Assembly: GCA_913030825.1 (NCBI GenBank)
Contig: CAJWCU010000017.1
Span: forward strand, 1 to 64,000
Length of the DNA stretch: 64,000 nucleotides
Origin: an uncultured Rhodospirillaceae bacterium
Lineage (GTDB): Bacteria; Pseudomonadota; Alphaproteobacteria; Rhodospirillales; Casp-alpha2
Direction: 5' to 3'
A model generated the notes under the pieces. The model was not told where the DNA came from. It worked only from the letters and a program-made list of their open reading frames with translations, and ran no database searches. The position numbers and the translations under genes were made by a program. Shown in pieces: positions 5,390 to 25,936 of this stretch (positions are counted from its first letter, which is position 1; every line of letters begins with the position of its first letter).

Positions 5390-5938
5390 TCAACCCCGAA
5401 GGGCGGCTTCCAGATAAGGCTTGAAGTGATCGATGCCGGGGGTGTCCAGACCGGCGGTCTTGGCCCGGTCGTCCCATTCCCGCAGTTTCACCGCGTCCTC
5501 CCAATGGGGGCGCGATTCGAAGGCCTGGACTTCGTCGGCGCTCATCGGTCCGCCCTGGAGTTCCAGGGATTTGACCGAGGCGGGCGAGAGCGTGTCGAAA
5601 TATTCCGGCCGTGCGGCGCAGAGGTAGCGTTTGGCGGCGACGTGCTGTCCCACGGCTTCGGCGACGCGGTCGTTGAAATATCGGCCGACCCAGCCGCGGG
5701 CGATGTCTTCGTGCTTGTCGTCGATGCCGCGGTCGGCCGCACTCTGCCCGTGTTTCTGCATCATATGGCCGATATCGTGCAGGAAGGCGGCGGCGATCAG
5801 ATCGCCGTCGCCCGATTCCGCCTCGGCCAGCAGGGCGCATTGCAGGGCGTGCTCCAGCTGCGAGACGACCTCCGTATACGGGCGTTGACCCTGATCGAGA
5901 AAAATGTCGATGGCATCGGCAAGGGGCTGATCGGTCAC
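5390..5938 (-). CDS. PhnZ/TmpB-like HD-domain mixed-valent diiron oxygenase
   Basis: 182 aa from the GTG at 5938, with AAGGA seven bases upstream. The longer frame to 6067 adds 43 residues that do not resemble the family. HD residues are visible in order: QLEHALQCA (first His), FLHDIGH, DKHEDIA, GQHVAAKRYLCA. The stretch SLELQGGPMSADEVQAF with a following LREWDDRAK is typical of the phosphonate-degradation HD family. Members open the C-P bond of a hydroxylated aminophosphonate using a diiron centre and O2. In PhnZ a Tyr and a Glu lie three residues apart just before the first His. Here the Tyr-Glu pair is PYTE, only two apart, so the substrate loop may differ. No PhnY gene is adjacent. Function by family is likely, the substrate is not. 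Confidence 0.75.
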   Translation of the reverse strand: MTDQPLADAIDIFLDQGQRPYTEVVSQLEHALQCALLAEAESGDGDLIAAAFLHDIGHMMQKHGQSAADRGIDDKHEDIARGWVGRYFNDRVAEAVGQHVAAKRYLCAARPEYFDTLSPASVKSLELQGGPMSADEVQAFESRPHWEDAVKLREWDDRAKTAGLDTPGIDHFKPYLEAALRG

Positions 5939-6128
5939 GGGGGAATCCTTCAAATTGGCGTGAGGAACACGGCGAACGGCCACAAATGACCCGGAGGGCG
6001 TGGAATTCCTCCATCTATTTAAATAAATTGGTCCTGTGTCAAATGGATGACGCTTTGTTGACGCCATGGCGCACTTGAACTCACCCCAAGGCCCGGTGTA
6101 TGCAACGCGGCTAAAGGAGATTTACCGG

Positions 6129-6758
6129 ATGCACAGGCGCCACGCCCTTATCGCTTGCTTGTTTTCGTTGCTCGTCGTGTTCGCACCCCAGGGTGCCCGC
6201 GCCGAGGTGACCAATGACGAGGTCAAGGCCTTCGTCAACTCCATGGCGGCCTCGGCGATCAGCTCGCTGACCGGAAAGGATCTCGACCGGGCGGTCCGCA
6301 AGGAACGCTTCCGGACCATGATCCACGATTTCTTCGCCATCAAATCCATCGGCATCTGGGTGCTGGGCCGCCATTGGCGCCGCGCTACCCCGGAACAGCG
6401 CGACCAGTATCTGGAGCTGTTCGAGAACATGCTGCTGGAACGCTATGTCGACGGGTTCAAGGACTATTCCGGGGAATCCCTGGAGATCACCCGCGCCGAA
6501 CGGCGACAGGCCAACGACTTCATCGTCCATACCCAGTTGAAGCGCCCGGGCGGCGCCCAGCCGGTGGACGTCGGCTGGCGCGTCGGTGTCGCCGAAAAAG
6601 ACGGCGGCAATGTCTTCAAGATCGTCGATATCATCGTCAACGGTCTTTCCATGGCCCTGACCCAGCAGAAGGAAATCAATTCCGTTATCAAGAACAACGG
6701 AAATTCCCTCGATGGTCTGCTGGATAAAATGCGGGAAATGGCCAAGCCCGCCGGCTGA
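6129..6758 (+). CDS. MlaC/Ttg2D-like periplasmic lipid-transfer protein
   Basis: 209 aa from the ATG at 6129, preceded by AAAGGAGAT with a nine-base gap; the frame is open from 6066 but that part lacks a site. An N-terminal signal peptide (LIACLFSLLVVFAPQGARA) precedes the mature domain. Motifs of the toluene-tolerance/MlaC family follow: RFRTMIHDFFAIKSIGIWVLG, then FENMLLERYVDGFKDYSGE, then VDVGWRVG. MlaC proteins carry phospholipids between outer and inner membranes; family members in hpn clusters are thought to carry hopanoids. It lies 20 bp before hpnC and probably opens the operon. Two more proteins of this family lie at 23.4-24.8 kb. Which one serves hopanoids cannot be told here. Confidence 0.85.
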   Translation: MHRRHALIACLFSLLVVFAPQGARAEVTNDEVKAFVNSMAASAISSLTGKDLDRAVRKERFRTMIHDFFAIKSIGIWVLGRHWRRATPEQRDQYLELFENMLLERYVDGFKDYSGESLEITRAERRQANDFIVHTQLKRPGGAQPVDVGWRVGVAEKDGGNVFKIVDIIVNGLSMALTQQKEINSVIKNNGNSLDGLLDKMREMAKPAG

Positions 6759-11243: not shown

Positions 11244-13223
11244 ATGGATAGGTCCACGCAGTCAGAGGGCGATACGCCCCAATCCGGTGGCGGCGATACG
11301 CGCGCCGAAGCCATCGACCTGCGCGATTTGGATCAAACCATCGACGAAGCGCGGTCCTGGTTGCAGGATCACCAGGACGGGGACGGCAGTTGGGCGTTCG
11401 AGCTTGAGGCAGACGCCACGATCCCCGCCGAATATATTTTGTTGAACCATTACCTGGGCGAACCGAACGACCACATCGAAGCCAAGATGGGCGTTTACCT
11501 GCGCCGTATTCAGGGCGAGCACGGCGGCTGGCCGTTGTTCCCCGACGGCGATTTCGACATGAGCGCCACGGTAAAGGCCTATTACGCGTTGAAGATGATC
11601 GGCGACGATCCCGACGCCCCGCACATGGCGAAGGCCCGTGCTGCGGTTTTGGCGCGGGGTGGGGCGGCGCGCGCCAACGTCTTCACGCGGATCGCGCTGG
11701 CCCTGTTCGAACAGGTGCCCTGGCGGGCGGCGCCGGTGATCCGGCCCGAAGCGATCTTGCTGCCGACCTGGTCGCCGTTCCATATCGACAAGGTCGCCTA
11801 TTGGTCGCGCACGGTGATGATCCCCTTGTTCGTGCTGGCCGCGACCCGGCCCAAGGCACGGAACCCGCGCGGCGTCGGTATTCGTGAACTGTTTCCGGAA
11901 GACCCGTTCCGCCAGACCGAATTCCTGGAAAACCCGACCGGGCATGTGCTGGGCAATGTGATGCTCGCGCTGGACAAGGCCGCTCGCCTGGTTCAACCGA
12001 TGATCCCCCAATGGCTGGAAAAGAAGGCCATCGGCAAGTGCATGGATTTCGTGAAGCAGCGGCTCAACGGCGAGGACGGCCTGGGCGGGATTTTCCCGGC
12101 AATGGCCAATGCCGTCATGGCCTATGACGTTCTGGGCTATCCGCGCGACCATCCCGATTACGTGACCGCGCGCGGGGCCATCGAAAAGCTGGTCGTCGAA
12201 CGCGAGGACGAAGCCTATTGCCAGCCCTGCCTGTCGCCGGTCTGGGATACAGGCCTTGCGATGCACGCCATGCAGGAAAGCGGCATGGTGGCCGGCGATA
12301 CCGTCCTCGACAAGGCCGCCGAATGGCTGGTCGACCGGCAGATCACCGATGTCGTCGGTGATTGGGCAACGCGCCGCCCGGGCTTGCGCCCCGGCGGCTG
12401 GGCCTTCCAGTACTGGAACGACTACTATCCCGACGTGGACGATACGGCCGTCGTCGTCATGGCCCTGCACCGCGCCGACCCGGTCCGTTACAAGGACGCC
12501 ATCAACCGCGGCGTCGAATGGATCATCGGCATGCAGAGCGAGAACGGCGGCTGGGGCGCGTTCGACGCCGAGAACGAAGCCTATCACCTGAACCACATTC
12601 CCTTCGCCGACCACGGCGCGTTGCTGGACCCGCCGACGTCGGATGTCAGTGCCCGCTGCCTCGGCATGCTGGCGCAGTTGGGTCATGGCCGGGACGAGCC
12701 GGTGGTCGCCCGTGCCATCGAATTCCTGAAGAACGAACAGGAAGAGGACGGCTCCTGGTTCGGGCGCTGGGGCACCAATTACGTGTACGGCACCTGGTCG
12801 GTCCTGTCGGCGCTGAACGCCATCGGCGAGGACATGTCGGCCCCTTATATCCGGCGCGCCGTCGACTGGCTGAAAAGCCGCCAGATGGACGACGGCGGCT
12901 GGGGCGAGGATTGCGCGACCTATTGGGAAGAGACCAAGGGCCTGGCCAAGGAAAGCACGCCGTCGCAGACCGCCTGGGCCATGATGGGCCTGATGGCCGC
13001 CGGCGAGGTAGATTGCGGCGAGGTGGCGCGCGGCGTCGACTACCTGATGACCCATCCGCGCGAAGGCGGCAAATGGGAAGAGACCAAGTTCAACGCCGTC
13101 GGCTTCCCCAAGGTCTTCTATCTGACCTATCACGGCTACAGCGCCTATTTCCCGCTGTGGAGCCTGTCCCGCTATCGCAACTTGAAGCGCAGCAACACCA
13201 AACGTCCCGCTTACGGGATCTGA
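11244..13223 (+). CDS. shc: Squalene-hopene cyclase
   Basis: 659 aa, normal for the family. The catalytic DxDD motif is seen as PDVDDTAV at about residue 399. Several QW repeats follow the QxxxG.W pattern, for example QDHQDGDGSW near the N-terminus, QSENGGWGAF and NEQEEDGSWFG in the second half. It cyclises squalene to hopene/hopanol as a monotopic inner-membrane dimer. The first 25 residues are polar and probably disordered. A 118-bp gap upstream could hold a promoter, but no clear one was found. The stop is 3 bp from the hpnG start. Confidence 0.97.
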   Translation: MDRSTQSEGDTPQSGGGDTRAEAIDLRDLDQTIDEARSWLQDHQDGDGSWAFELEADATIPAEYILLNHYLGEPNDHIEAKMGVYLRRIQGEHGGWPLFPDGDFDMSATVKAYYALKMIGDDPDAPHMAKARAAVLARGGAARANVFTRIALALFEQVPWRAAPVIRPEAILLPTWSPFHIDKVAYWSRTVMIPLFVLAATRPKARNPRGVGIRELFPEDPFRQTEFLENPTGHVLGNVMLALDKAARLVQPMIPQWLEKKAIGKCMDFVKQRLNGEDGLGGIFPAMANAVMAYDVLGYPRDHPDYVTARGAIEKLVVEREDEAYCQPCLSPVWDTGLAMHAMQESGMVAGDTVLDKAAEWLVDRQITDVVGDWATRRPGLRPGGWAFQYWNDYYPDVDDTAVVVMALHRADPVRYKDAINRGVEWIIGMQSENGGWGAFDAENEAYHLNHIPFADHGALLDPPTSDVSARCLGMLAQLGHGRDEPVVARAIEFLKNEQEEDGSWFGRWGTNYVYGTWSVLSALNAIGEDMSAPYIRRAVDWLKSRQMDDGGWGEDCATYWEETKGLAKESTPSQTAWAMMGLMAAGEVDCGEVARGVDYLMTHPREGGKWEETKFNAVGFPKVFYLTYHGYSAYFPLWSLSRYRNLKRSNTKRPAYGI

Positions 13224-13226
13224 CGG

Positions 13227-13925
13227 GTGGCCGGGGGCTCGGCCCGCATCGGCATCGTCACCGGTGTTCTGCGCGAGGCGGCCTGCCTGTCCGCATTCGC
13301 GAAAGATGAAAACGTGATGATCCGCGTCGCCGGAGCCGATCCCCGCCGGGCGGGCGAATTGGCGGCGGAGATGTTTGCCGCCGGCGCCGAAGGCGTGCTC
13401 AGTTTCGGTCTATGCGGCGGGCTGGATAAGAAGTTGGATGCGGGCGATATCCTGCTGCCGGCCCGCATCATCGCCGCCGAAGGCCGCAGCCTGACCTGTG
13501 ATCCCGATTGGACCGGGCGCCTGGAAGACGCCCTGGGCGATCTGGTGACCCGCAAGAACGCGATCCTCGCCCATTCGACGGTGATCGTCGCGGGACCTAA
13601 GCGCAAGGCGGTGCTGCGCGCCAATACGGGTGCCGACGCGGTGGATATGGAAAGCTACGCCGTCGGCCAGGCCGCGAAGAAAGCGAAGAAGCCCTTCGCC
13701 GTCATCCGCGCGATTTCCGACACGGCGGAAACGCGCCTGCCGGAATGGACGGACGAAATCGTCTCGACCGCCGGCGGCACGGACGGCATCCGGCTTTTGA
13801 AGAACCTGGCATTGCACCCGGGCGATATCGGCAAACTGCTGTCGCTGGGGCGCGGCAGCACCAAGGCGCTGAAAATCCTGCGCCGGGTTGCGTCGGAATT
13901 GGGGCCGGAGATGGCCTTTCGCTGA
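13227..13925 (+). CDS. hpnG: HpnG, adenosylhopane nucleosidase-like phosphorylase
   Basis: 232 aa from the GTG at 13227, three bases after the shc stop. It has the purine-nucleoside phosphorylase/MTA nucleosidase fold: GVLSFGLCGGLD, then GADAVDMESYAVGQAA, where the Met-Glu-Ser segment contacts the ribose, then FAVIRAISDTAE. In hopanoid synthesis it removes adenine from adenosylhopane to leave a ribosyl intermediate. The C-terminal third (from about residue 180) is family-specific. It is convergent with hpnH across 24 bp. Confidence 0.9.
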   Translation: MAGGSARIGIVTGVLREAACLSAFAKDENVMIRVAGADPRRAGELAAEMFAAGAEGVLSFGLCGGLDKKLDAGDILLPARIIAAEGRSLTCDPDWTGRLEDALGDLVTRKNAILAHSTVIVAGPKRKAVLRANTGADAVDMESYAVGQAAKKAKKPFAVIRAISDTAETRLPEWTDEIVSTAGGTDGIRLLKNLALHPGDIGKLLSLGRGSTKALKILRRVASELGPEMAFR

Positions 13926-13949: not shown

Positions 13950-15113
13950 TTAGGCCGCCTCTTCCTTCTTGCGGGCGGCGGCCTGTTTTTCGGCCTCGGC
14001 TTTTTCTTCCATCTTCTGGCTCAGCGTCTTGACCAGGCCTTCGAAGACGAATTCGGCCGGGCGTTGATTGTCCAGATCGATTTCCGGCGCCATCTCGCCG
14101 GACGTATTGACGCCCTGCATGAAGACCTTGAGCGCCTTCAACGGGTGCGAGACGGTATCGGTCACCGCCGTCGGCTCGTATCCGCAATGGACCATGCAGT
14201 CGGCGCATTTCTCGTAGTTGCCGGTGCCGTACTTGTCCCATTCGACCTCGTCCATGAGGTCCTGGAAGGTCTCGGCGTAGCCTTCGGACAAGAGATAGCA
14301 GGGCTTCTGCCAGCCGAAGATGTTGCGCGTCGGGTTGCCCCAGGGCGTGCATTTGTAGGACTGATTGCCGGCCAGGAAATCCAGGAACAGGGTCGACTGC
14401 GAGAACCGCCACTTCTTGGCGCCCGGGTGCTTGAAGACGTCGCGGAACAGCTGCTTGGTCTTCTTGCGGCTGAGGAAGTGTTCCTGATCCGGGGCGCGTT
14501 CGTAGGCGTAGCCGGGCGAAACGGTGATGCCCTCGACGCCCAGGTCGTGGGTGCAGAATTCAAAGAACTCGGCCGCTTCCTGCGCCGTCATCTGATCGAA
14601 CAGGGTGCAGTTAACGTTGACGCGGAAGCCCATGTCCTTCGCCTTGCGGATCGCCGAGACGGCGCGCTTGAAGGTGCCGGGCTGGTTCACGGCCTTGTCG
14701 TGGTGGTCCTCCATGCCGTCCAGATGGACAGAGAAGGTCAGGTACGGCGTCGGCGTGAACTTGTTCAGGTTCTTTTCCAACAGCAGCGCATTGGTGCAGA
14801 GATAGACGAACTTCTTGCGCGCCACGATGCCCTCGACGATTTCCTTGATCTCTTTGTGGATCAGGGGCTCGCCACCCGGGATCGAGACGATGGGGGCGCC
14901 GCAATCGTCGACCGCCTGCAGGCATTCTTCGGCCGACAAGCGCCGATTGAGGATGTCGTCCTCGTAATCGATCTTGCCGCAGCCGGGGCAGGCGAGGTTG
15001 CAGCGGAACAGCGGCTCCAGCATCAGGACCAGGGGATAGCGCTCCACGCCGCGGAGCTTCTTGTTCATGATGTAGGCGCCGACGCGCGCTTGTTGGATCA
15101 GGGGAACAGCCAT
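13950..15113 (-). CDS. hpnH: HpnH, radical SAM adenosylhopane synthase
   Basis: 387 aa. The radical SAM cluster motif CxxxCxxC is seen in FRCNLACPGCGK near residue 36. GGEPLIHKEI is the usual SAM-contact GGE motif. The C-terminal part holds CTPWGN, then KCADCMVHCGYEPT, whose cysteines suggest a SPASM-like region. It joins the 5'-deoxyadenosyl group of SAM to hopene, the first step of C35 side-chain extension. It is the second gene of an ispH-hpnH pair on the minus strand, six bases from the ispH stop with no clear ribosome site of its own, so coupling is likely. The C-terminal tail is Lys/Glu/Ala-rich. Confidence 0.95.
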   Translation of the reverse strand: MAVPLIQQARVGAYIMNKKLRGVERYPLVLMLEPLFRCNLACPGCGKIDYEDDILNRRLSAEECLQAVDDCGAPIVSIPGGEPLIHKEIKEIVEGIVARKKFVYLCTNALLLEKNLNKFTPTPYLTFSVHLDGMEDHHDKAVNQPGTFKRAVSAIRKAKDMGFRVNVNCTLFDQMTAQEAAEFFEFCTHDLGVEGITVSPGYAYERAPDQEHFLSRKKTKQLFRDVFKHPGAKKWRFSQSTLFLDFLAGNQSYKCTPWGNPTRNIFGWQKPCYLLSEGYAETFQDLMDEVEWDKYGTGNYEKCADCMVHCGYEPTAVTDTVSHPLKALKVFMQGVNTSGEMAPEIDLDNQRPAEFVFEGLVKTLSQKMEEKAEAEKQAAARKKEEAA

Positions 15114-16248: not shown

Positions 16249-17253
16249 ATGACGACAGGGGCTCCCAATCTGGTCACCGGCGCGTCCGGCTTCGTCGGCG
16301 CCGCCGTGGTGCGAAAGCTGCTCGACGTGGGCGAGGCCGTGCGCGTGCTGATGCGCCCGGGGAGCGACCGGCGCAATATCGCGGGCCTGGATGTCGAGGT
16401 GGTGGAGGGCGATCTGCTCGCCCCGGAGACCCTGGGACCGGCGGCCAAAGGCTGCCGGGCCCTTTATCACGTCGCCGCCGACTACCGAATCTGGACTCGC
16501 GACCCGGCGGCCATGTTCCGCGCCAACGTGGATGGAAGCGCCGCCGTCGTCCGCGCCGCCGCCGAGGCGGGGGCGGAACGTATTGTTTATACGTCTTCCG
16601 TCGCCGTGCTGGGCAATCCGGGCGACGGCACGCCGGGTGACGAAGGCACGCCCGTGACCTACGGCGACATGATCGGGCCCTACAAACAATCGAAATACCG
16701 GGCGGAGGAGCGAATCAGGGAACTGACGGCGCAAGAGGGCTGGCCCGTGGTCATCGTCAATCCGTCGACGCCCATCGGCCCGCGCGACGTCAAGCCGACG
16801 CCGACCGGTCGCATCGTCGTCGACGCGGCCAAGGGCAAGATGCCGGTCTATGTCGATACGGGCCTGAACGTCGCCCATGTCGACGACGTCGCGGAAGGCC
16901 ATCTGTTGGCCTTTGCCAAGGGACGGATCGGCGAGCGCTACGTCTTGGGCGGCGAGAACATGACGCTCAGTGAAATTCTGGGTGTGATCGCCGAGTTGAC
17001 CGGCGGCCGGCCGCCGTTCTGCAAGGTACCTACGGGCCTGATCATGCCGATCGCCCATATCGCCGAAGCCTGGTGCCGGCTGACAGGCGGTGAGAAACCG
17101 ATGGTCGCCCCCGACGAGGTTCGTATGGCGAAGAAGAAGATGTTCTTTTCCTGGGACAAGGCGGCGCGGGAATTGGATTATGCCCCCCGACCGGCGCGCG
17201 AGGCCCTGGCCGATGCCGTGGACTGGTTCCGGGCGAACGGCTATTTCCGCTGA
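16249..17253 (+). CDS. hpnA: HpnA, hopanoid-associated NAD(P)-dependent sugar epimerase
   Basis: 334 aa. An extended SDR enzyme: NLVTGASGFVGAAVV is the nucleotide-binding motif, and YKQSKYRAE holds the YxxxK active-site pair with an upstream VYTSSVAVLG Ser. Family members are found in hpn clusters and are named for that context. The substrate is not established, though modification of a sugar for the hopanoid side chain is the usual guess. The divergent gap to ispH (about 170 bp) should hold both promoters. There is a 131-bp gap to the nucleotidyltransferase. Confidence 0.9.
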   Translation: MTTGAPNLVTGASGFVGAAVVRKLLDVGEAVRVLMRPGSDRRNIAGLDVEVVEGDLLAPETLGPAAKGCRALYHVAADYRIWTRDPAAMFRANVDGSAAVVRAAAEAGAERIVYTSSVAVLGNPGDGTPGDEGTPVTYGDMIGPYKQSKYRAEERIRELTAQEGWPVVIVNPSTPIGPRDVKPTPTGRIVVDAAKGKMPVYVDTGLNVAHVDDVAEGHLLAFAKGRIGERYVLGGENMTLSEILGVIAELTGGRPPFCKVPTGLIMPIAHIAEAWCRLTGGEKPMVAPDEVRMAKKKMFFSWDKAARELDYAPRPAREALADAVDWFRANGYFR

Positions 17254-17384: not shown

Positions 17385-18167
17385 ATGAAGGCAGTCATGC
17401 TTGCGGCCGGTGTCGGCCGGCGTCTTTTCGGTGATGGTAACGACGATCCGCCCAAGGCTTTGCTACAGTTCGGCGACAAGACCTTGCTGGCGCGCCATAT
17501 CGAGGTTCTGACGGCGTTGGGCGTCGAGGAACTGATCGTCGTCGTCGGCCATAAGAAGGAAATGATCGAGGACGAATTGGCCCGCGTCGCGCCGGAAGGT
17601 TTCGCACGCACCCTGTTCAATCCGCGTTTCAAGGAAAGCCCGATCCTGTCCCTGGCCACGGCCGGCGAGGTACTGCGTTCGGGCGAGCGGGTCCTGTTCA
17701 TGGACGCCGACGTTTATTATCACGACGACCTGTTGAAGGCGCTGATTAACAGCCGCCATCAGACCTGCATCATTCTGGACCAGGATTTCGTGCCCGGCGA
17801 GGAGCCGGTGAAGACCTGCGTCCGCGGTGACGTGCTGGTTGATTTCGGCAAGAAGGTCTACGAACCCCACGATATGGTCGGCGAATGGCCGGGGTTCCTG
17901 ACCATGGCGCCGGAGATCGCCCACCGCGTCGCCGACCGGGCGGACGAGCTGTCCCAGGGCGACATGCCGGGGTTCGTCTACGAGGATGCCTTCTGCGACG
18001 TCATGAAAGCGTCAGAGCCGGGCACTTTCGGGTTTGAGGACGTCACGGGTATTCCCTGGATCGAGATCGATTTCCCGGAAGACCGCGAGCGCGCCGCGAC
18101 GGAAATTCGCGCCAAGATCGCGGCTTACAAGCCCATGGGCGAGCGGCTCGGCGACGCCGCCGAATAA
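17385..18167 (+). CDS. Nucleotidyltransferase, LicC/PntC/inositol-phosphate cytidylyltransferase-like
   Basis: 260 aa. The N-terminus MKAVMLAAGVGRRL with PPKALLQFG a few residues on is the signature of sugar-phosphate and choline-phosphate nucleotidyltransferases. FMDADVYYHDDLL gives the metal-binding Asp residues. FNPRFKESPILSL matches the NP..(x)..SL substrate loop of LicC-like cytidylyltransferases, and IPWIEIDFPEDRERA is the usual C-terminal element. It probably activates a small phospho- or phosphono-alcohol as a CDP derivative. A CDP-alcohol phosphatidyltransferase lies downstream on the same strand, which supports a CDP product. The substrate (inositol, choline, 2-aminoethylphosphonate or another) is not visible. 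Confidence 0.75.
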   Translation: MKAVMLAAGVGRRLFGDGNDDPPKALLQFGDKTLLARHIEVLTALGVEELIVVVGHKKEMIEDELARVAPEGFARTLFNPRFKESPILSLATAGEVLRSGERVLFMDADVYYHDDLLKALINSRHQTCIILDQDFVPGEEPVKTCVRGDVLVDFGKKVYEPHDMVGEWPGFLTMAPEIAHRVADRADELSQGDMPGFVYEDAFCDVMKASEPGTFGFEDVTGIPWIEIDFPEDRERAATEIRAKIAAYKPMGERLGDAAE

Positions 18168-18191
18168 GGCGCTTTCAAGCCCTTCCGATCC

Positions 18192-18950
18192 CTAAACCCT
18201 GAAGACGTATTGCTTCGACGGATCGCGGTCGATATCGGGCGGGAAATTCTTGTGCTTGTCCGCGTAGTAGCGGTCCATGAAGTCGCCGGCCGAGGCCCGG
18301 TTATAGGTCGCGTAGTAGATTCGCCGGATGGTGTCGCTCATGTTGGCTTCGGATGCATGGGGGGCGAAGCTGTCGAAGAACACGACGTCGCCCGGCTCGG
18401 TGGGGACGGGCTGAAATTCCATCCCGGCCATGTCGGCGTCCGTCATCGGCTCCCACGACTGGAACATGCCGCTTTTATGATGGCCGCGGACCATCTTTAG
18501 GCATCCGTTCTCTTCCGTCGCCGGGTCGATGGAGACCAGGGCCGAGATGAAGAAGTCCGTATAGGTATCCCAGCCGGCCTGCGAATCCTGATGCGGTTTG
18601 AAGCCGTCGCCCCCCGGCATCTTGAAATTGATCTTTTCCTTGAACAGGGCCGCGTCCTCACCCAGCAACTGCGCCACCGGCCCGCGCAGGGCCTCGGTCA
18701 AGGCCTTGAACCCGTCGTGATAGGGGGCGATCCGTTCGATCCGGCTGACCAGGTCGCGGTCGTCGCCTTTTTGGCTTTTCTCGTGAAAAACCCAATGGCG
18801 GCCGGAGATCTCGGGCAGGGCCAGGACTTCGTCGGTCCAGCCGGCAATGATAGCCATGTCGTCGGCGGAAAAGCCGCCACGCAGGACCAGAAAACCGTCG
18901 TCGGAGAATTGCTGGACTTGATCGTCTGTCAGAATGGGCGTCTTGAGCAT
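18192..18950 (-). CDS. Phytanoyl-CoA dioxygenase (PhyH) family Fe(II)/2-oxoglutarate oxygenase
   Basis: 252 aa from the ATG at 18950; a much longer open frame to 19664 runs over the next gene and is not real. The iron-binding HxD is in FKPHQDSQAGW and the distal His in SFAPHASEANMS. The following TIRRIYYATYN carries the Arg that binds 2-oxoglutarate. PhyH enzymes hydroxylate lipids, small acids and, in PhnY, aminophosphonates. The gene lies on the opposite strand between a cytidylyltransferase and a CDP-alcohol phosphatidyltransferase, so hydroxylation of a head group or lipid is plausible but unproven. It is convergent with the cytidylyltransferase gene (24 bp). Confidence 0.85.
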   Translation of the reverse strand: MLKTPILTDDQVQQFSDDGFLVLRGGFSADDMAIIAGWTDEVLALPEISGRHWVFHEKSQKGDDRDLVSRIERIAPYHDGFKALTEALRGPVAQLLGEDAALFKEKINFKMPGGDGFKPHQDSQAGWDTYTDFFISALVSIDPATEENGCLKMVRGHHKSGMFQSWEPMTDADMAGMEFQPVPTEPGDVVFFDSFAPHASEANMSDTIRRIYYATYNRASAGDFMDRYYADKHKNFPPDIDRDPSKQYVFRV

Positions 18951-19073
18951 GTTCCGTCGCCTCGGCGTATACGGCACGGCAAACGATGCCGGTTGCCTTT
19001 TGCCGCAAATTTCATGATGTTCCGGGCTAACCTGTAGCCCCATCTCGTTCCGCCCGCAACCGGAGGCAAGACC

Positions 19074-19727
19074 ATCAGTCACAATACCTGGATTCACAAG
19101 GTCGCCCGTGTCGCGGTGACCAAGCCGTTGATGGGGACGCGCGTGACGCCCAGCCAGGTGACCGTCGTGCGCATTCTGACCGGTGTCGCCGCCGCGGCGG
19201 GCTTTTCCATAGGCCAGACGGACCTTTGGGGCATCGCTCTTTGGAACTGGGGGGCGGGCTTGTTCGTCCTGTCCATGGTGTTGGATCGGGGCGACGGCGA
19301 CTATGCCCGCCAGTCCGGCCAAACCAGTGCCGCCGGGCATAAGTTCGATTTGATCGCCGACACCGTCTGCAACGCCATCATCTTCATCGGCTTGGGCATC
19401 GGCCTGCGCCACGGCGACTGGGGTGTCTGGGCAGTTCCCATGGGCGCGCTGGCCGGGGCCTCGGTGACCTTCATTCTGTGGCTGGTCATGCGCATGGAAA
19501 GTTTGGCGGGTGCGCGTAGTGCCGAATTGGGGTCGTTCATGGGCTTCGATCCCGACGATGCCATGCTGGCGGTACCGATCCTGGTGTTCCTCGGTTATCA
19601 GGAACCGCTGCTGCTGGCCGCCGCCGTCGGGGCGCCCGGGTTCGCGGTGCTGTTCGCCGTGCAATGGGCGTTCAAATACCGCGCCCGCCGGCAGGCCATG
19701 GCCGACGGGGGACAGGCCGAAGAATGA
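19074..19727 (+). CDS. CDP-alcohol phosphatidyltransferase family membrane protein (possible ATC start)
   Basis: The full CDP-alcohol motif DGxxAR(x8)G(x3)D(x3)D is present: DGDYAR, then G and two Asp in GHKFDLIAD. Four to six hydrophobic segments follow, as expected for this integral membrane family, which joins a CDP-activated alcohol to an acceptor alcohol with loss of CMP. Start: the first usual codon is GTG at 19116, but it has no ribosome site. An in-frame ATC at 19074 lies seven bases after a perfect GGAGG (19062-19066). It would give an N-terminus (SHNTWIHKVARVAV) of the sort I recall from related proteins. No ATG, GTG or TTG exists between the upstream stop at 19035 and 19116. Length is 217 aa (ATC) or 203 aa (GTG). 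The end overlaps hpnN by ATGA. Confidence 0.8.
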   Translation: MSHNTWIHKVARVAVTKPLMGTRVTPSQVTVVRILTGVAAAAGFSIGQTDLWGIALWNWGAGLFVLSMVLDRGDGDYARQSGQTSAAGHKFDLIADTVCNAIIFIGLGIGLRHGDWGVWAVPMGALAGASVTFILWLVMRMESLAGARSAELGSFMGFDPDDAMLAVPILVFLGYQEPLLLAAAVGAPGFAVLFAVQWAFKYRARRQAMADGGQAEE

Positions 19728-22345
19728 GCGCCGCCGCCGTCTTCGAGCGTCTATTCCGCGCCTGGGCTGGATTCGCCCGGCGTGGTGCCTGGGTGGTGTT
19801 GATGCTTGCTCTGCTTGGCACGGGCCTGACCGTGAAATTCCTCGCGGATAATCTGGCCATCAATACGGACACCACGGACATGCTGTCGGCCGAACTGCCG
19901 TTCCGCCAGCACAACCGCGAGGTCGCGCGGCTGTTCCCGCAACTCAGCGACAATATCCTGCTGGTCCTCGACGGCGCCGTGCCGGAACAGGTCGACCGGG
20001 CCGCTGTTGCCCTGACATCCCGGATCAAGGCGGCGCCCGAGACCTTCGGGGCGCTGTTCGATCCGGAAGGCGAGGCGTTCCTGCGACGCAACGGTCTGCT
20101 GTTCCTGAGTGTCACGGAACTGGAGGACCTGACCGGCCGTCTGGCCGAGGCGCAACCGTTCCTCGCCAGCCTTTGGGGGGACGCCAGCCTGGCGACCCTG
20201 TTCGATCTGCTGCGCCAGGGCATCGAGCAACAGCTTGAGGGCAAGGCGCCGCCGGTCGCGCTGGCCCGAGTTCTCGACATGCTGGCCGAAGTCGGCGAGC
20301 GTCGGGCCGAAGGGGCGGACATCGTGTTGTCCTGGCGGCAGCTCCTAAATGGCGAGACCGACGGAGGGGCGCGCCGGATGATCGTATTGAAGCCGCCTTT
20401 GGATTTCTCGTCCCTGCAACCGGCGGGCAAGGCGATCCAGGCGTTGAAGGACCTGCGCGCCGAATTGAATTTGGCGGGCGACGGTGCAGTGCGGATGCGC
20501 ATTTCCGGCAGCGTGGCCCTGCAACAGGACGAATTGAAAAGCGTCGAACGGGGCATGGGCCTCGCTGGCATCTTGTCTTTCGTTCTGGTGATCGTTCTGT
20601 TGGCGGTCGGTCTGCGGTCCTTCCGAATGGTCGTCGCGGTTCTGGTTACGTTGGTTCTTGGGCTGGTCTGGACGGCGGGTTTCGCGATCTGGGCCTTGGG
20701 CGCGCTGAATCTGATCTCCGTCGCCTTTGCCGTGCTGTTCATCGGGCTCAGCGTCGATTTCGGCATTCACTTCGCGCTGCGCTACCGGGAATACCGGCGG
20801 GCAGGGCTGGATAACGGGGCGGCGCTCGAGGCCACGGCGGCGACAGGCGGCGGCGGCTTGACACTCTGTGCCGTGGCGGCGGCGATCGCTTTCTATTCCT
20901 TCCTGCCGACCGACTACGTGGGGCTCGCCGAACTGGGGTTGATTGCGGGCTCGGGCATGTTCATCGCGCTCGCCGCGAATTTGACGGTGCTGCCGGCCCT
21001 GCTGACCCTGATGCCCGTCGCGGGCGGCGGGGCCACGGGCGGTGCGTCCTGGACCGACGGTCTGCGCCAGGGCGTCCAAGGGCACCCCAACAGGGTGCTG
21101 ATCGGGGCGGGGGTCGTCGCGGTGCTTGGCCTCGCAATCGCGCCTCGGGCGCATTTCGATTTCGATCCGCTGAACCTGCAGGACCGCAATCTGGAATCCG
21201 TCGGGGTGATCCATGAACTGGCGGCGGGCGAGGCGGCGGCACCCTATGCGGCGACGGTCCTGGCCAAGAACACCGAAGCCGCGCGCGATCTGGCGGCGCG
21301 GCTGACGGCCCTGCCGGAGGTCGCGGGCGTCGCCTCGATCCACAGTTTCGTGCCCGGCGATCAAGACGAGAAAGTCGAGATCGTCCGTGACTTGGCGCTC
21401 TTCATGCTGCCGTCGCTGACCTTGGGCGGCGGCGATGGCGACCGCGATCCGAAGCGCCGCCGCGTGGCGGCGGAGGCTCTGGCATCGGTGTTGGATGCAT
21501 TGAACGACACGAAGGCAGGCCCGGACCTGACCCGCGCGGCGGCACGGCTCAAGGCTCTGCTGGCCGGCGTGGACGATGCGGGCTTGGCGAATCTCGAAGC
21601 CGGTCTGCTGGCGACGTTCCCCGATGCCGTCGCCCAGTTGAAGGAGAGCCTGAATCCCGAGGAGTTCACCATCGCCGATCTGCCTGCCGACATTCGTGCC
21701 CGGTATGTCGCCGCCGACGGACAGGCGCGGATGGAGGTTCTGCCTGCTCACGACCTGCGCGACCCGGCGGCGGTCGAGGCATTCGTCACGGCCTTGCGCG
21801 GCGTGGCGCCGGAGGTTTCGGGATCCCCGGTGACGATCTTCGAGGCGGGGCGTGCCGTGCTTTCGGCCTTCCTGCAAGCGGGGGCGATCGCCATCTCGGC
21901 GATCCTGTTGCTGTTGGCTTTGCTGTTGCGGCGGGTGTCGGACGTGATCTTCGTCTTCCTGCCGCTGACCTTGGCGGCGGTGCTGACGGCCTGCGCCTCG
22001 GTTCTGTTCCAGATCCCGTTCAATTTCGCGAATATCATCGTCCTGCCGCTACTGTTCGGTTTGGGCGTCGCCAGCGGCATTCACCTTGTGCTGCGTGACC
22101 GTCAGGAACGGGCGGCGGGCCCCGGCACGGCGGCGGGCGGGGCGTTCGAGACCTCGACGCCGCGCGCCGTGCTGTTCAGCGCTCTGACGACGATCGGATC
22201 GTTCGGCGCCATCGCGCTGTCCGGTCATCCGGGAACGGCGAGCATGGGGGTGTTGCTGACCATCGCCATTTCGCTGACCCTGATCTGTACGTTGGTTGTG
22301 CTGCCGGCCCTTTTGGCCCGGCGGGCCGGAGGCGGCCGTGAGTAA
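19724..22345 (+). CDS. hpnN: HpnN, RND-family hopanoid transporter
   Basis: 873 aa from the ATG of the ATGA overlap; the frame is open further upstream inside the previous gene. Two repeated halves each have a large periplasmic loop and a cluster of helices. The N-terminal helix GAWVVLMLALLGTGLTV is followed by a loop of about 230 residues, then by membrane segments such as SFVLVIVLLAVGL and SVAFAVLFIGLSVDFGIHFALRYREYR, an MMPL/RND signature. The second half repeats this with FANIIVLPLLFGLGVASGIH. HpnN moves hopanoids from inner to outer membrane in alphaproteobacteria. The gene is coupled to the phosphatidyltransferase and hpnL. Confidence 0.92.
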   Translation: MSAAAVFERLFRAWAGFARRGAWVVLMLALLGTGLTVKFLADNLAINTDTTDMLSAELPFRQHNREVARLFPQLSDNILLVLDGAVPEQVDRAAVALTSRIKAAPETFGALFDPEGEAFLRRNGLLFLSVTELEDLTGRLAEAQPFLASLWGDASLATLFDLLRQGIEQQLEGKAPPVALARVLDMLAEVGERRAEGADIVLSWRQLLNGETDGGARRMIVLKPPLDFSSLQPAGKAIQALKDLRAELNLAGDGAVRMRISGSVALQQDELKSVERGMGLAGILSFVLVIVLLAVGLRSFRMVVAVLVTLVLGLVWTAGFAIWALGALNLISVAFAVLFIGLSVDFGIHFALRYREYRRAGLDNGAALEATAATGGGGLTLCAVAAAIAFYSFLPTDYVGLAELGLIAGSGMFIALAANLTVLPALLTLMPVAGGGATGGASWTDGLRQGVQGHPNRVLIGAGVVAVLGLAIAPRAHFDFDPLNLQDRNLESVGVIHELAAGEAAAPYAATVLAKNTEAARDLAARLTALPEVAGVASIHSFVPGDQDEKVEIVRDLALFMLPSLTLGGGDGDRDPKRRRVAAEALASVLDALNDTKAGPDLTRAAARLKALLAGVDDAGLANLEAGLLATFPDAVAQLKESLNPEEFTIADLPADIRARYVAADGQARMEVLPAHDLRDPAAVEAFVTALRGVAPEVSGSPVTIFEAGRAVLSAFLQAGAIAISAILLLLALLLRRVSDVIFVFLPLTLAAVLTACASVLFQIPFNFANIIVLPLLFGLGVASGIHLVLRDRQERAAGPGTAAGGAFETSTPRAVLFSALTTIGSFGAIALSGHPGTASMGVLLTIAISLTLICTLVVLPALLARRAGGGRE

Positions 22346-23390
22346 CGCGGGGCGGGGCGCCATGCGCTATCTGACCTGGTTGTATCTCGGCCTCGGCATC
22401 GTCTTGCTGGCCTGGGTCGTTGCCGGGGTCGATCTGGACGCGGCGCTCGCCAGCATCCTGGAGATGGGATGGCTCGGGCTGGCGGCGGCGCTCGGCATGT
22501 ATCTCGCCGCTTTCTACGTCGATAGCCTGTCCTGGCAACTGGCAATCCTCAAGGTCCCACTGACGCCTGGCTGGTCCTACGTGATCTGGCGCATCCGTAT
22601 GGTCGGTGAGGCGTTCAACATGGTGTTGCCGGCGGGCGGCTTCGGCGGTGAGCCGATCAAGGCGGTGCTGCTGAAGCGCCATCACGCCGTCAACTACCGC
22701 GAGGGCATCGCCTCGATCATTCTCGCCCGGACGATCAATCTGATCGGTTTGATCGTGTTCATGGCCGTGGGATTGATCCTATTGGCCCAGCACGAGGCGG
22801 CGGGTAAGTACGGGGCTTTCGCGCTTGGGGGGTTCGCCTTTCTGACCTTCGGGATCGGTGTGGTGTTCGGCGTGCAAAAATTCCGTGCGACGTCTTGGAC
22901 GGGGTCGCGGCTGGGCCGGACGCGTCTGGGGGCGAAGATCGGCGCGGCGCTCGACAACATCCGCGACGTCGAGGATCGCCTGCACCATTTTTATACGGCC
23001 CGACCCGCGCGGTTCCTGCCGGCCATCGTCCTGGCGGTCACCAATTGGGTCCTGGGGGCGATTGAAACCTATGTAATGCTGTATTTCCTGGGCAATCCCG
23101 TGACCCTGGGCGAGGCGATCATCATCGAGTCCGTTATTCAGATGGTGCGCGCCGTGACGTTCTTCATCCCGGCCAATCTGGGGACTCAGGACAGTGCCTT
23201 GATCGTGCTTGCGGGCGCCATAACCGGGCAGCCATCGGCCGGGGCGGCGCTGGCGGCGGTCAAACGCATCCGCGAGATCGTATTCGTGTTGTGGGGATTC
23301 GGGCTGGGCTCGTTCTATTCCCTGCGCTCGCTGATGCGCGATGCGGAAACAAGGTCCGCCGAGGATGCCGGTGGGGATAAGGCCGGGTAA
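22338..23390 (+). CDS. hpnL: HpnL, lysylphosphatidylglycerol synthase-TM-like membrane protein
   Basis: 350 aa from the GTG at 22338, which has GGAGG five bases upstream and overlaps the hpnN end; an ATG at 22362 is the alternative. It has about eight hydrophobic segments, starting with WLYLGLGIVLLAWVVAGV. FNMVLPAGGFGGEPIKAVLLKR is the conserved segment of the UPF0104/LPG-synthase membrane family, and FFIPANLGTQDSALIVLAG lies near the end. HpnL proteins belong to hopanoid clusters; a role in lipid flipping or export is assumed but not proven. It is convergent with the hpnM-like gene across 6 bp. Confidence 0.9.
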   Translation: MSNAGRGAMRYLTWLYLGLGIVLLAWVVAGVDLDAALASILEMGWLGLAAALGMYLAAFYVDSLSWQLAILKVPLTPGWSYVIWRIRMVGEAFNMVLPAGGFGGEPIKAVLLKRHHAVNYREGIASIILARTINLIGLIVFMAVGLILLAQHEAAGKYGAFALGGFAFLTFGIGVVFGVQKFRATSWTGSRLGRTRLGAKIGAALDNIRDVEDRLHHFYTARPARFLPAIVLAVTNWVLGAIETYVMLYFLGNPVTLGEAIIIESVIQMVRAVTFFIPANLGTQDSALIVLAGAITGQPSAGAALAAVKRIREIVFVLWGFGLGSFYSLRSLMRDAETRSAEDAGGDKAG

Positions 23391-23396
23391 GGCGTC

Positions 23397-24008
23397 TTAC
23401 TTCTTAGCGACGGCCTCGGCCATTTGGGTCAGGGTCTCGGTCAGTGCCGGCAGGCCCTTTCGGGCGGTGCTTTTAAATTCGGAAATATGCTTCGCCAGTT
23501 GGCTGATCGACGTCGTCCCCCGGCGGACCAGAACGTCATAGACGCCCCATCGTCCGTCGGATTTGACCATCAGATAGGTGAAGGTGACGGGTTCTTCTCC
23601 GGTCATTTCCGTTTCGACCAGAACCGTACCGTTCTGCGGCCCCGGTTTTTCGCCGTGGTCCTGGAATTCCTGCCCGGACCAGCCGTCGAACTGGGCGGCG
23701 TAGGTGCCGATGGTCCAGCGCCGGAAGGCCTCGAGGTAAGCCTTGCGCTCTTCTTCTGAGGCGTCTTTCCAGGCCCGTCGCCCCGCCGACTGGCGGGCCG
23801 TCAGGTCCAGGTGATAGGCCTTGTCGACGGCGGGTGCGAGCCTCTCGAACCGGCCCGAAAGGCCCAATTCGTCCGCCTTTTTCATGGTGGTCAGCAGGGT
23901 CTCGTGAAACGCCTTCACAATATCCCCGGCAGCGCCATCCTTGGCCTTGGCCGACACGGGAGCCAGCGCAAGCAGGGCCAGCACGACAACGGCCCAAAGC
24001 CGCCGCAT
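23397..24008 (-). CDS. hpnM: HpnM-like (MlaC/toluene tolerance family) periplasmic protein, copy 1
   Basis: 203 aa from the ATG at 24008, chosen because a clean signal peptide follows (MRRLWAVVVLALLALAPVSAKA); the frame is open to 24113. The mature part has LGLSGRFERLAPAVDKAYHLD, WKDASEEERKAYLEAFRRWT and TYAAQFDGWSGQEF, typical of the HpnM branch of the Ttg2/MlaC family. It probably binds a hopanoid or phospholipid in the periplasm and hands it between membranes. A second related gene follows upstream on the same strand with a 133-bp gap. Confidence 0.85.
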   Translation of the reverse strand: MRRLWAVVVLALLALAPVSAKAKDGAAGDIVKAFHETLLTTMKKADELGLSGRFERLAPAVDKAYHLDLTARQSAGRRAWKDASEEERKAYLEAFRRWTIGTYAAQFDGWSGQEFQDHGEKPGPQNGTVLVETEMTGEEPVTFTYLMVKSDGRWGVYDVLVRRGTTSISQLAKHISEFKSTARKGLPALTETLTQMAEAVAKK

Positions 24009-24141
24009 GGGCGAAGAAACCCGGTAAGGAGGAGCGGGGCGCCGGGAAGGGCGGGGACTAAGAAAATAGAGTTTCATCGAAAACACGTAGGCATGACTCC
24101 ATCCGGATGCCATGGCATCCGGATAAATCCTTCGGTGCGGG

Positions 24142-24789
24142 TCATTTGGCGGCTTTGCCCGACGCGGTTTCCGAAGCGAGGATTTCGTCCGCCTTGGTAT
24201 TCAGCAAATTGGTCAGCGCGCTGACGCCGCCGTCTTCCAGGGTCCGGCGGTATTCGTCCTTACGTTTGACCAATTGGGATATCGTGCCGTCCAACAGGAC
24301 ATCGATGATTCGCCAGTTTTCGTCGAATTTCCTGACGCGATAGGTAATATCGACGTCGTCACCGCTCGTCCGTTTCAATTTGGTGCGAACCAGGATGGTG
24401 CCGTCCTTGATCGGTCGATTGCCGGCCGATGCGAAGCGCTCGCCGCTGTATCCGGAGAACAAGACGGCCAACTCGCCGGCGCTCATGCGCCGGGCGGCGC
24501 GGACGAGATCGATGCGTTCTTCCTTGCTTGCCTTGGTCCATTCGCCGCCGGAAACGAAGGCGACCATCAGCGGCATGTGGAAATATTTGTCCAGATACCC
24601 CAGGAACTTATTGTAACGCCCTGACACACCAAGCGAATCGCTTTCCTTCATGACGGCGATCAGGTCCTCCTGGAACGCCGTTACCACGGCCTCGGGCGCC
24701 TCGGCCCGAGCGACTGACGGCGCCAGTGCAAGGCAGAAAACAGCCGCCGCGACGGCACTCCATAGGGTCGGAAAAATACGCTGAATCAT
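24142..24789 (-). CDS. HpnM/MlaC-like periplasmic protein, copy 2
   Basis: 215 aa with a signal peptide ending PSVARAEA. LGVSGRYNKFLGYLDKYFHMP, WTKASKEERIDLVRAARRMS and LFSGYSGERF line up with the neighbouring copy. DDVDITYRVRKFDENWRIIDVLLDGTISQLVKR is the conserved second half. It is clearly a paralogue of the 23.4-24.0 kb gene and more distantly of the 6.1-kb gene. It is transcribed away from mlaA, with 265 bp between them. Confidence 0.85.
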   Translation of the reverse strand: MIQRIFPTLWSAVAAAVFCLALAPSVARAEAPEAVVTAFQEDLIAVMKESDSLGVSGRYNKFLGYLDKYFHMPLMVAFVSGGEWTKASKEERIDLVRAARRMSAGELAVLFSGYSGERFASAGNRPIKDGTILVRTKLKRTSGDDVDITYRVRKFDENWRIIDVLLDGTISQLVKRKDEYRRTLEDGGVSALTNLLNTKADEILASETASGKAAK

Positions 24790-25054: not shown

Positions 25055-25936
25055 TTGGCTGGTAAGTTTCGAATTTTCGCTGTCAGCGTTTTGTTGGCGA
25101 CTTCGATTGCGTTCGGTTCCGCGCAAGCGGACGACGCCGCGCGTGAACTGACGGATCGGGATGGGCTGTCGCAGGCTGCCGACATTCAATTGTCGCAGGC
25201 CGAGGATGACACCAATGATCCCCTGGAAGACATGAACCGCGCGATCTTCTCGTTCAACGAAGGCGTTCAGTCCGCGTTGCTGCGGCCTCTGGCAGATGTC
25301 TACAATTCAAACGTCCCGGCGACCGGTCGCCAGGCGCTGAAGAACATGTTCGACAATTTGTCGTCGCCGATCACCTTCGTGAACGACATTCTGCAGTTCG
25401 AGTTCGAGCGCGCCTTGGTGACCTTCACGCGGGCCTTTATCAACACGACGTTCGGCATGGCGGGCATTTCCGACCTGGCGTCGGAAATGGGCTTTGAGAA
25501 GCACCAGGAAGATTTCGGCCAGACCTTGGCTGTCTGGGGTGTCGGCGAAGGCTTCTACGTGGTGCTGCCGCTGCTCGGCCCGTCCAATCCGCGTGACGCG
25601 GTGGGCCGTTTGCTGGTCGATGGTTACTTCGATCCGTTGAGCTATTACCTGGACAACATCGACGAGGAAGAGATCGATCTCGCTCTTGATCTGGTCGATG
25701 GGTTCCTCGAGTACGCCGACGTGGTCGAGGAACTGGATCAGATTCGCAAGACCTCGGTCGATTATTACGCGGCGATCCGCTCGCTGTACCGTCAGAAGCG
25801 TAATGCCGAGATTTCCAACGGTCAGAATCTCGATCTGCCGCCGATCCCGGATTTGTCGCCTGAAATCCGTGGTGAGATGTTGCCGAACGGCGCGATCGAC
25901 AGTTCCTTCGCGCGCCTTCAGAACGCGGTTCAGTAA
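25055..25936 (+). CDS. mlaA: MlaA/VacJ family lipid-trafficking protein
   Basis: 293 aa from a TTG at 25055; the only nearby ATG (25042) is out of frame and quickly stops. The signal peptide is VSVLLATSIAFGSAQA. No lipobox cysteine is visible, unlike the E. coli lipoprotein. The family signature DPLEDMNRAIFSFNEGV is followed by the membrane-embedded core FINTTFGMAGISDLASEMG, DFGQTLAVWGVGEGFYVVLPLLGPSNPRDAVG, and DPLSYY. MlaA sits in the outer membrane and removes mislocalised phospholipids for MlaC. Its partner could be one of the two MlaC-like proteins encoded next to it. Confidence 0.9.
   Translation: MAGKFRIFAVSVLLATSIAFGSAQADDAARELTDRDGLSQAADIQLSQAEDDTNDPLEDMNRAIFSFNEGVQSALLRPLADVYNSNVPATGRQALKNMFDNLSSPITFVNDILQFEFERALVTFTRAFINTTFGMAGISDLASEMGFEKHQEDFGQTLAVWGVGEGFYVVLPLLGPSNPRDAVGRLLVDGYFDPLSYYLDNIDEEEIDLALDLVDGFLEYADVVEELDQIRKTSVDYYAAIRSLYRQKRNAEISNGQNLDLPPIPDLSPEIRGEMLPNGAIDSSFARLQNAVQ

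Follow-up and report, generated by a model that had tools for sequence, protein, structure and literature searches.

The window analysed here comprises the first 64,000 nucleotides of contig CAJWCU010000017.1 (GenBank assembly GCA_913030825.1) from an uncultured Rhodospirillaceae bacterium, and it carries a hopanoid (hpn) gene cluster into which three genes of predicted lipid head-group synthesis are set. The cluster contains shc, encoding squalene-hopene cyclase (SHC) (11244-13223, plus strand; 786.3 bits, cut-off 431.1), hpnG (13227-13925, plus strand; named by its position and a reading of its sequence), hpnH (13950-15113, minus strand; 558.1 bits, cut-off 225.05), hpnA, encoding a hopanoid-associated short-chain dehydrogenase/reductase (16249-17253, plus strand; TIGR03466, 492.5 bits, cut-off 367.65), and hpnN, encoding a hopanoid transporter of the resistance-nodulation-division type (19724-22345, plus strand; TIGR03480, 941.1 bits, cut-off 751.85). 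HpnB was found in the same stretch with 560.7 bits, above its curated cut-off of 379.25, and since shc, hpnH, hpnA, hpnB and hpnN all exceeded their cut-offs in one stretch, the region was classified as a hopanoid cluster. Downstream of hpnN lies a gene encoding an hpnL-like membrane protein, a possible flippase (22296-23390, plus strand, start perhaps at the ATG at 22362), which matched PF03706 with 111.9 bits and TIGR03476 with 146.3 bits, below the cut-off of 195.65.

An initial annotation had placed a nucleotidyltransferase, a PhyH dioxygenase and a CDP-alcohol phosphotransferase between hpnA and hpnN, and all three were recovered there with Pfam support: a PntC-type (LicC-like) nucleotidyltransferase (17385-18167, plus strand), a PhyH-type Fe(II)/2-oxoglutarate dioxygenase (18192-18950, minus strand) and a phosphotransferase of a subtype named type A (19074-19727, plus strand). 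The proposed coupling of the phosphotransferase to hpnN agrees with a four-nucleotide overlap (ATGA), in which the hpnN start codon at 19724 overlaps the TGA ending at 19727. The layout had been described correctly except that the opposite orientation of the PhyH gene went unmentioned; it is convergent with the nucleotidyltransferase gene and divergent from the phosphotransferase gene. The proximity of hpnA to the nucleotidyltransferase gene is more than chance, since a distance of at most 400 bp separates the two in 31 of 80 relatives' loci (sample described below). A scan for promoters and terminators was unusable, with one promoter-like site against 0.5 expected and seven terminator-like sites, mostly intragenic, against 2.5 expected. 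From the gene content, motifs, neighbourhoods and co-occurrence observed, we consider it probable that the module makes a 2-aminoethylphosphonate (AEP)-type lipid head group that is functionally tied to hopanoids, whichever lipid is the acceptor.

Predicted activities of the three proteins

The nucleotidyltransferase has 260 amino acids and matched NTP_transf_3 (PF12804, MobA-like) with 59.8 bits (cut-off 27, E 4.8e-16); the closest sequences in the Protein Data Bank (PDB) were PntC (6pd1, 1.6e-9) and LicC (1jyk, 1.5e-7). The nearest named relative is Rhodospirillaceae bacterium EAC36 (locus L031), whose nucleotidyltransferase is 98% identical. An alignment of 78 rows was made from the window, 76 relatives' loci and the second copy in L087, with L042, L056, L071 and L097 dropped for stops, N or length. 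D107, D109, E200, E227 and D229 occurred together in 76 of these rows, the two exceptions being second copies in the PepM regions of L087 and L091. E200 aligns with Glu196 of Tde-PntC, which faces the AEP amine according to the available text of PMC6697681; the amine-facing pair Glu104/Glu196 of Tde-PntC thus corresponds to Asp at the first position (D107) and Glu at the second (E200), again in 76 of the 78 rows. Together with the Pfam and PDB matches and the gene company of the relatives, the conserved acidic residues make the protein a candidate CTP:AEP cytidylyltransferase. AEP had been one of three substrates put forward in the initial annotation, and it stands out among them because pepM, ppd or aept accompanies the nucleotidyltransferase gene in 61 of the 80 loci and because these genes are present elsewhere in the same genome. 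A phosphocholine substrate was also weighed and placed lower. Partners of the licA, licB or licD type were not noticed among the listed neighbours of the relatives, in which no search aimed at lic genes was made.

The phosphotransferase matched CDP-OH_P_transf with 45.1 bits (cut-off 22). CDP-alcohol phosphotransferases share the motif D-x2-D-G-x2-A-R-x8-G-x3-D-x3-D, and this motif is complete: D71, D74, G75, A78, R79, G88, D92 and D96 were invariant in all 29 phosphotransferases compared. The structural model (pLDDT 88.5) was closest to AF2299, followed by phosphatidylinositol-phosphate synthases, with IPCT-DIPPS lower. On profile, motif and model the protein is a candidate CMP-AEP:lipid phosphonotransferase. 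Its profile also retrieved choline/ethanolamine phosphotransferases among solved structures, and the protein matched archaetidylinositol-phosphate and phosphatidylinositol-phosphate synthases. The latter matches, and the folds of these enzymes, would suit an IPCT/DIPPS-like route in which CDP-inositol is made and inositol phosphate is transferred to a lipid, and IPCT-DIPPS (NF041135) was indeed the best NCBIfam match of the nucleotidyltransferase (3.2e-17). However, the module scored only 62.6 (nucleotidyltransferase) and 23.3 bits against a cut-off of 580, family matches of this kind reflect fold and distant kinship, and 61 of the 80 relatives have PepM, Ppd or AEPT at their loci; an inositol head group is thus very improbable.

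The phosphotransferase gene probably starts with ATC at 19074 rather than with GTG at 19116. Among 26 type-A orthologs including that of the window (five further rows were excluded because the start was unaligned or masked), the apparent start codon is a rare one in 17 (ATT in nine, ATC in six, ATA in two) and ATG in nine. The rare-start orthologs besides the window's are those of L031-L035, L040, L050, L051, L053, L063, L085, L092, L103, L105, L106 and L109; the rare codon precedes a conserved SHNTWIH-like N-terminus, and in 11 of the 17 the stretch from the preceding in-frame stop to this codon contains no ATG, GTG or TTG. By analogy with infC, which has an AUU start, the rare start may serve to tune translation. 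Three phosphotransferases (types A, B and C) stand together in nine of the 80 loci (L036, L040, L050, L051, L053, L055, L063, L084 and L103), pointing to more than one acceptor or head group. In the window's genome, type A lies in the cluster, and contig C24 (L142) encodes a C-like copy, 38% identical to that of L036.

The dioxygenase matched the PhyH profile with 101.1 bits (gathering threshold 22). Fe(II)/2-oxoglutarate dioxygenases bind their cofactors by HxD...H plus Arg; H120, D122, H198, R209 and R210 were invariant in all 36 PhyH members aligned. The best NCBIfam match of all 36 was methylphosphonate hydroxylase (NF052437), the window protein scoring 146.5 bits, below the cut-off of 500. 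Its model (pLDDT 92.9) matched many Fe/2-oxoglutarate hydroxylases, a comparison of folds that does not tell the substrate. PhyH was present in 37 of the 80 relatives' loci, in 22 of them within 400 bp of PntC. Profile, best match and relatives' loci suggest a phosphonate head-group hydroxylase. At the edge of the cluster, however, lies a gene for a PhnZ-like HD-domain oxygenase of phosphonate degradation, Phn-HD (5390-6067, minus strand; TIGR03276, 220.8 bits, cut-off 214.6), and therefore PhyH could instead serve phosphonate turnover, forming with Phn-HD a PhnY/PhnZ-type route from AEP, or from AEP released from lipid, to glycine and phosphate. The Phn-HD score above its cut-off, the kinship of PhyH to methylphosphonate hydroxylase and an AEP uptake protein encoded with a transaminase elsewhere in the genome all fit such a role. 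Yet Phn-HD did not turn up at any other locus examined, including the 18 of 20 upstream stretches that also showed another hopanoid marker or shc (the stretches of the nearest relatives, L031-L034, were too short to reach its position), whereas PhyH recurs beside PntC; turnover in place of tailoring is therefore unlikely.

Phosphonate and hopanoid genes in the same genome and in relatives

The initial annotation had read the module as a head-group route. CDP-activation followed by phosphotransfer fits this reading, but the module in the window is incomplete on its own, the genes for formation of the C-P bond being located on another contig. PepM is encoded on contig C2 (374 bits, cut-off 319.55; L130, 9511-10434), where its EDKLFPKTNS fits the PepM signature EDKx5NS given in PMC6697681, and is adjoined by Ppd (412.2 bits, cut-off 312.5); among the open reading frames listed there, none encoded a PntC. 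One AEP transaminase above the cut-off was found in the genome, on contig C1 (483.5 bits, cut-off 400.8). In L131 (5256-10568 and 13734-15434) the neighbours of the transaminase include a protein for AEP binding and uptake (TIGR03261, 502.7 bits) and a Na/Pi symporter; the transaminase may therefore serve uptake, synthesis or both, and AEP is probably not only made but also imported by this bacterium.

For the relatives, the best 80 of 201 stretches encoding a nucleotidyltransferase relative (224 pattern-matched) were taken from a species-level genome collection and their gene content was determined by tblastn with proteins of the window and its genome. Of the 80 loci, 61 contained PepM, Ppd or AEPT and 56 a hopanoid gene (hpnA, B, G, H, shc or hpnN); 41 had genes of both kinds and four had neither. 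PepM lay within 400 bp of PntC in 45 loci, and HpnL was found in 26. In Alphaproteobacteria, hopanoid neighbours were seen in 35 and phosphonate genes in 23 of 40 loci; the corresponding numbers were 12 and 22 of 22 in Gammaproteobacteria, 5 and 10 of 12 in Cyanophyceae, none and one for the single betaproteobacterium, and 4 and 5 for the five loci without a class; as many contigs are short, these counts are lower bounds. The fuller alphaproteobacterial loci (L040, L050 and L053) have the order hpnB - shc - hpnG - hpnH - ispH - hpnA - PntC, followed by PhyH - PepM - Ppd - AEPT - phosphotransferases with hpnN - hpnL. Many gammaproteobacterial loci have PntC-PepM-Ppd-AEPT near hpnH-hpnB-mlaC-mlaA, and in five cyanobacterial loci the phosphonate module is near hpnH and/or hpnA. 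The arrangements differ between the classes and thus do not reflect inheritance of a single gene order. In Gammaproteobacteria only 2 of 22 loci contained a phosphotransferase of type A, B or C, and in Cyanobacteria only 3 of 12. A cultured relative, Chlorogloeopsis fritschii PCC 6912 (L069), has PntC, PepM, Ppd and AEPT at its locus, and SHC is present in its genome. A tree of PntC, made by a quick method that left 25 of 73 inner branches open and without the PepM-region copies of L087 and L091, kept the classes largely apart (five changes, minimum possible three); the hopanoid-neighbour label needed 15 changes, from which little is drawn as short contigs make the label unsure. PepM was lacking at 25 loci, and a search of 22 of the respective genomes gave PepM above the cut-off in 15.

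The link to hopanoids was then followed across the class in 385 alphaproteobacterial genomes, drawn evenly and including that of the window (G000), with thresholds of at least 104 bits for the PntC clade (the next match falls to 77) and of E up to 1e-12 for the phosphotransferase clade. The PntC clade was present in 48 genomes from 23 families and SHC was above its cut-off in 102. SHC was found in 47 of the 48 PntC genomes and in 55 of the 337 others (Fisher 1.7e-30, a value that is too small as genomes were treated as independent), which makes the tie of the module to hopanoids stronger than could be known when it was first suggested. Counted by genus (by hand, with SHC genera at E up to 1e-30), SHC was present in 32 of 33 PntC genera and in 42 of 244 others. 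PepM was above the cut-off in 44 genomes, 41 of them with SHC and 40 with PntC; the three without SHC (G201, G318 and G322) had neither the PntC nor the phosphotransferase clade. The phosphotransferase clade was found in 45 genomes, 44 with PntC and 44 with SHC. G307, the only genome with PntC and phosphotransferase that lacks SHC, carries hpnH; the cyclase may therefore be missing from the assembly. Furthermore, the genomes behind 50 of the 80 loci, mostly the less obvious ones, were searched and SHC was found in 44, in 43 of them above the cut-off. None of the six loci from genomes lacking SHC showed a phosphotransferase, three of the six being contigs of 6.6 kb or less.

Four loci from Lysobacterales/Xanthomonadales (L079, L093, L095 and L065), in whose genomes SHC is absent, have PntC-PepM-Ppd, in three of the four with AEPT, together with other proteins, one of which (L079, L095) resembles CDP-glycerol glycerophosphotransferase by eye. 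These loci perhaps make a phosphonate-decorated glycan, and CMP-AEP could likewise decorate a surface glycan in the window's bacterium, the phosphotransferase then serving a lipid-linked glycan; Pnt pathways are thought to decorate glycans too, according to the available text of PMC6697681. In the window, however, the enzyme is a membrane CDP-alcohol phosphotransferase whose gene overlaps hpnN, and 44 of the 45 genomes with its clade also have SHC; we regard glycan tailoring as improbable at this locus.

Several observations weigh against an AEP head group tied to hopanoids. The nucleotidyltransferase and PhyH both score well below the cut-offs of their best NCBIfam matches, and D107 occupies the position of Glu104 of Tde-PntC, where LicC has Asp105 (numbering as in the available text of PMC6697681). 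The pepM-ppd pair that would form the C-P bond lies outside the window on another contig, and the AEP transaminase, neighbouring an AEP uptake protein, may be catabolic. Among the 48 PntC genomes, PepM above the cut-off was missing from eight and the phosphotransferase from four; of the 22 genomes searched because PepM was lacking at the locus, seven gave none above the cut-off. SHC was absent from 6 of the 50 genomes with the PntC clade that were searched behind the loci, four of the six being the Lysobacterales/Xanthomonadales genomes. Finally, kinship among the genomes makes the P values too small; the direction of the association is clear, its exact number is not.

Proposed route and lipid acceptor

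The substrates and the order of steps given here are predicted throughout. PepM would convert phosphoenolpyruvate to phosphonopyruvate, Ppd would form phosphonoacetaldehyde and the transaminase AEP, all three being encoded on other contigs. The nucleotidyltransferase would convert AEP to CMP-AEP, from which the CDP-alcohol phosphotransferase would move AEP onto a lipid hydroxyl with release of CMP. PhyH probably hydroxylates the head group, before or after transfer; PhnY hydroxylates at C1 and, by analogy, PhyH would act at C1 of the head group. HpnN, perhaps with HpnL, would move the product.

The acceptor could be a hopanoid polyol, bacteriohopanetetrol, though we propose this only tentatively. 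The strongest hint is that the phosphotransferase clade is scarce outside hopanoid makers in the class and that its gene overlaps hpnN. On the other side, relatives in the CDP-alcohol phosphotransferase family habitually use diacylglycerol, and up to three phosphotransferase subtypes occur in one locus (nine of 80). Mutual exclusion with hpnI, of the bacteriohopanetetrol cyclitol-ether branch, was not seen among 47 of the 48 PntC genomes (G296 omitted) and 33 of the 55 genomes that have SHC but no PntC (one per family): hpnI was present in 16 of the 47 (14 above the cut-off) and in 8 of the 33, and thus the test lends no support to a hopanoid acceptor. hpnH, found in all 80 of these genomes, does not discriminate.

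Diacylglycerol is a comparably tentative candidate for the acceptor. The product would then be a companion lipid, a phosphono-analogue of phosphatidylethanolamine made by a Kennedy-type route, with hopanoids only as its membrane partner or sharing its transporter, an explanation that we hold possible and short of probable. It is in line with the retrieval of choline/ethanolamine phosphotransferases, with the several subtypes per locus, with the coexistence of the module and the hpnI branch and with predicted phosphonolipid clusters that have the same parts (PMC5987646, as far as its text is available). However, a general diacylglycerol lipid need not track hopanoids, whereas SHC accompanies the phosphotransferase clade in 44 of 45 genomes and is found in 102 of 385 overall; in addition, the phosphotransferase gene overlaps hpnN. 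With bacteriohopanetetrol as the acceptor, phosphonohopanoids might be made, in which a dedicated phosphotransferase joins AEP or 1-hydroxy-AEP to bacteriohopanetetrol as an ester and HpnN exports the product. This would be, with the same reserve, a class of C-P bonded triterpenoids in Alphaproteobacteria and probably also in Gammaproteobacteria and Cyanobacteria. The computed [M+H]+ ions are 654.486 for AEP-bacteriohopanetetrol (C37H68NO6P) and 670.481 for the hydroxy form.

Several lipid-carrier-like genes flank this one hopanoid cluster. Upstream, an HpnM/MlaC-like gene (6066-6758, plus strand; TIGR03481, 74 bits, below the cut-off of 160.1) is divergent from the Phn-HD gene; downstream, two tandem MlaC-like reading frames (23397-24113 and 24142-24789, both minus strand) and one MlaA-like reading frame (25055-25936, plus strand) were recognised by reading the sequence. 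At the start of the window, a gene for a TIR-NLR-type defence protein of 829 amino acids (71-2560, plus strand; PADLOC PDLC03015, 2.2e-189; TIR_2 domain) lies in DNA of low GC content (0.41 over the first 2 kb; the other blocks have 0.55-0.69); this stretch was probably acquired.

Comparison with known systems

Hopanoids are widely used as bacterial molecular fossils, and the proposed phosphonate head-group route inside hpn clusters offers a definite product to search for. In a 2025 study of hopanoids in Alphaproteobacteria, hpnA, hpnB and hpnL are described as having no established function, and its authors saw no further obvious candidate genes near hpn clusters (PMC12583986, available text); the proposed route would place the orphan gene hpnA beside a defined chemistry. 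With a hopanoid as the acceptor, C-P bonds would reach a class of lipids for which, among the papers listed by the searches, which cover few subscription journals, no AEP- or phosphonate-bearing member was seen beyond a remark on Roseomonas; with diacylglycerol as the acceptor, the partner lipid shared by hopanoid makers would still be unexpected. Already in print are predictions of phosphonolipid clusters and a link between pepM and hopene cyclase in Roseomonas. Added here are the route by PntC, phosphotransferase and PhyH, the class-wide co-occurrence and the placement between hpnA and hpnN.

Rice et al. 2019 (PMC6697681) measured PntC activity in two enzymes of the wider family and, in the available text, left the acceptor step after PntC unknown; the phosphotransferase of the window is a candidate for this step. 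The window enzyme resembles those PntC systems in its NTP_transf_3 fold, its kinship to Tde-PntC (1.6e-9) and the PepM/Ppd/AEPT company of its relatives, and differs in being a stand-alone enzyme, in the Asp at the Glu104 position and in its location inside a hopanoid cluster with a candidate for the acceptor step. In IPCT-DIPPS/AF2299 the same logic of cytidylyltransferase and CDP-alcohol phosphotransferase is found, and 4o6n was the best Foldseek match of the modelled phosphotransferase (TMq 0.74), but there the two activities are fused while they are separate in the window, the scores are far below the cut-off and another substrate is expected. Methylphosphonate hydroxylase (PhnY*, NF052437), the best curated match of all PhyH members, differs in that the window PhyH falls short of its cut-off and sits in an apparently biosynthetic cluster.

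The pepM of Roseomonas was linked to hopene cyclase and an "undiscovered terpene-phosphonate" was suggested (PMC8776678); phosphonate and hopanoid genes are linked there as in the window, but the remark, in the text available, concerns pepM only and names no cytidylyltransferase or phosphotransferase step. Similar in gene content is the predicted phosphonolipid cluster of a lichen Nostoc, modelled on Yu et al. 2013, for which the figure legend of PMC5987646 gives a CDP-alcohol phosphotransferase, an Fe/2-oxoglutarate oxygenase, an NTP transferase, pepM, ppd, AEPT and hpnL. The string "hopan" occurs nowhere in the available text of that paper, and in the bacterium studied here other contigs carry pepM, ppd and AEPT, the module itself lying between hpnA and hpnN.

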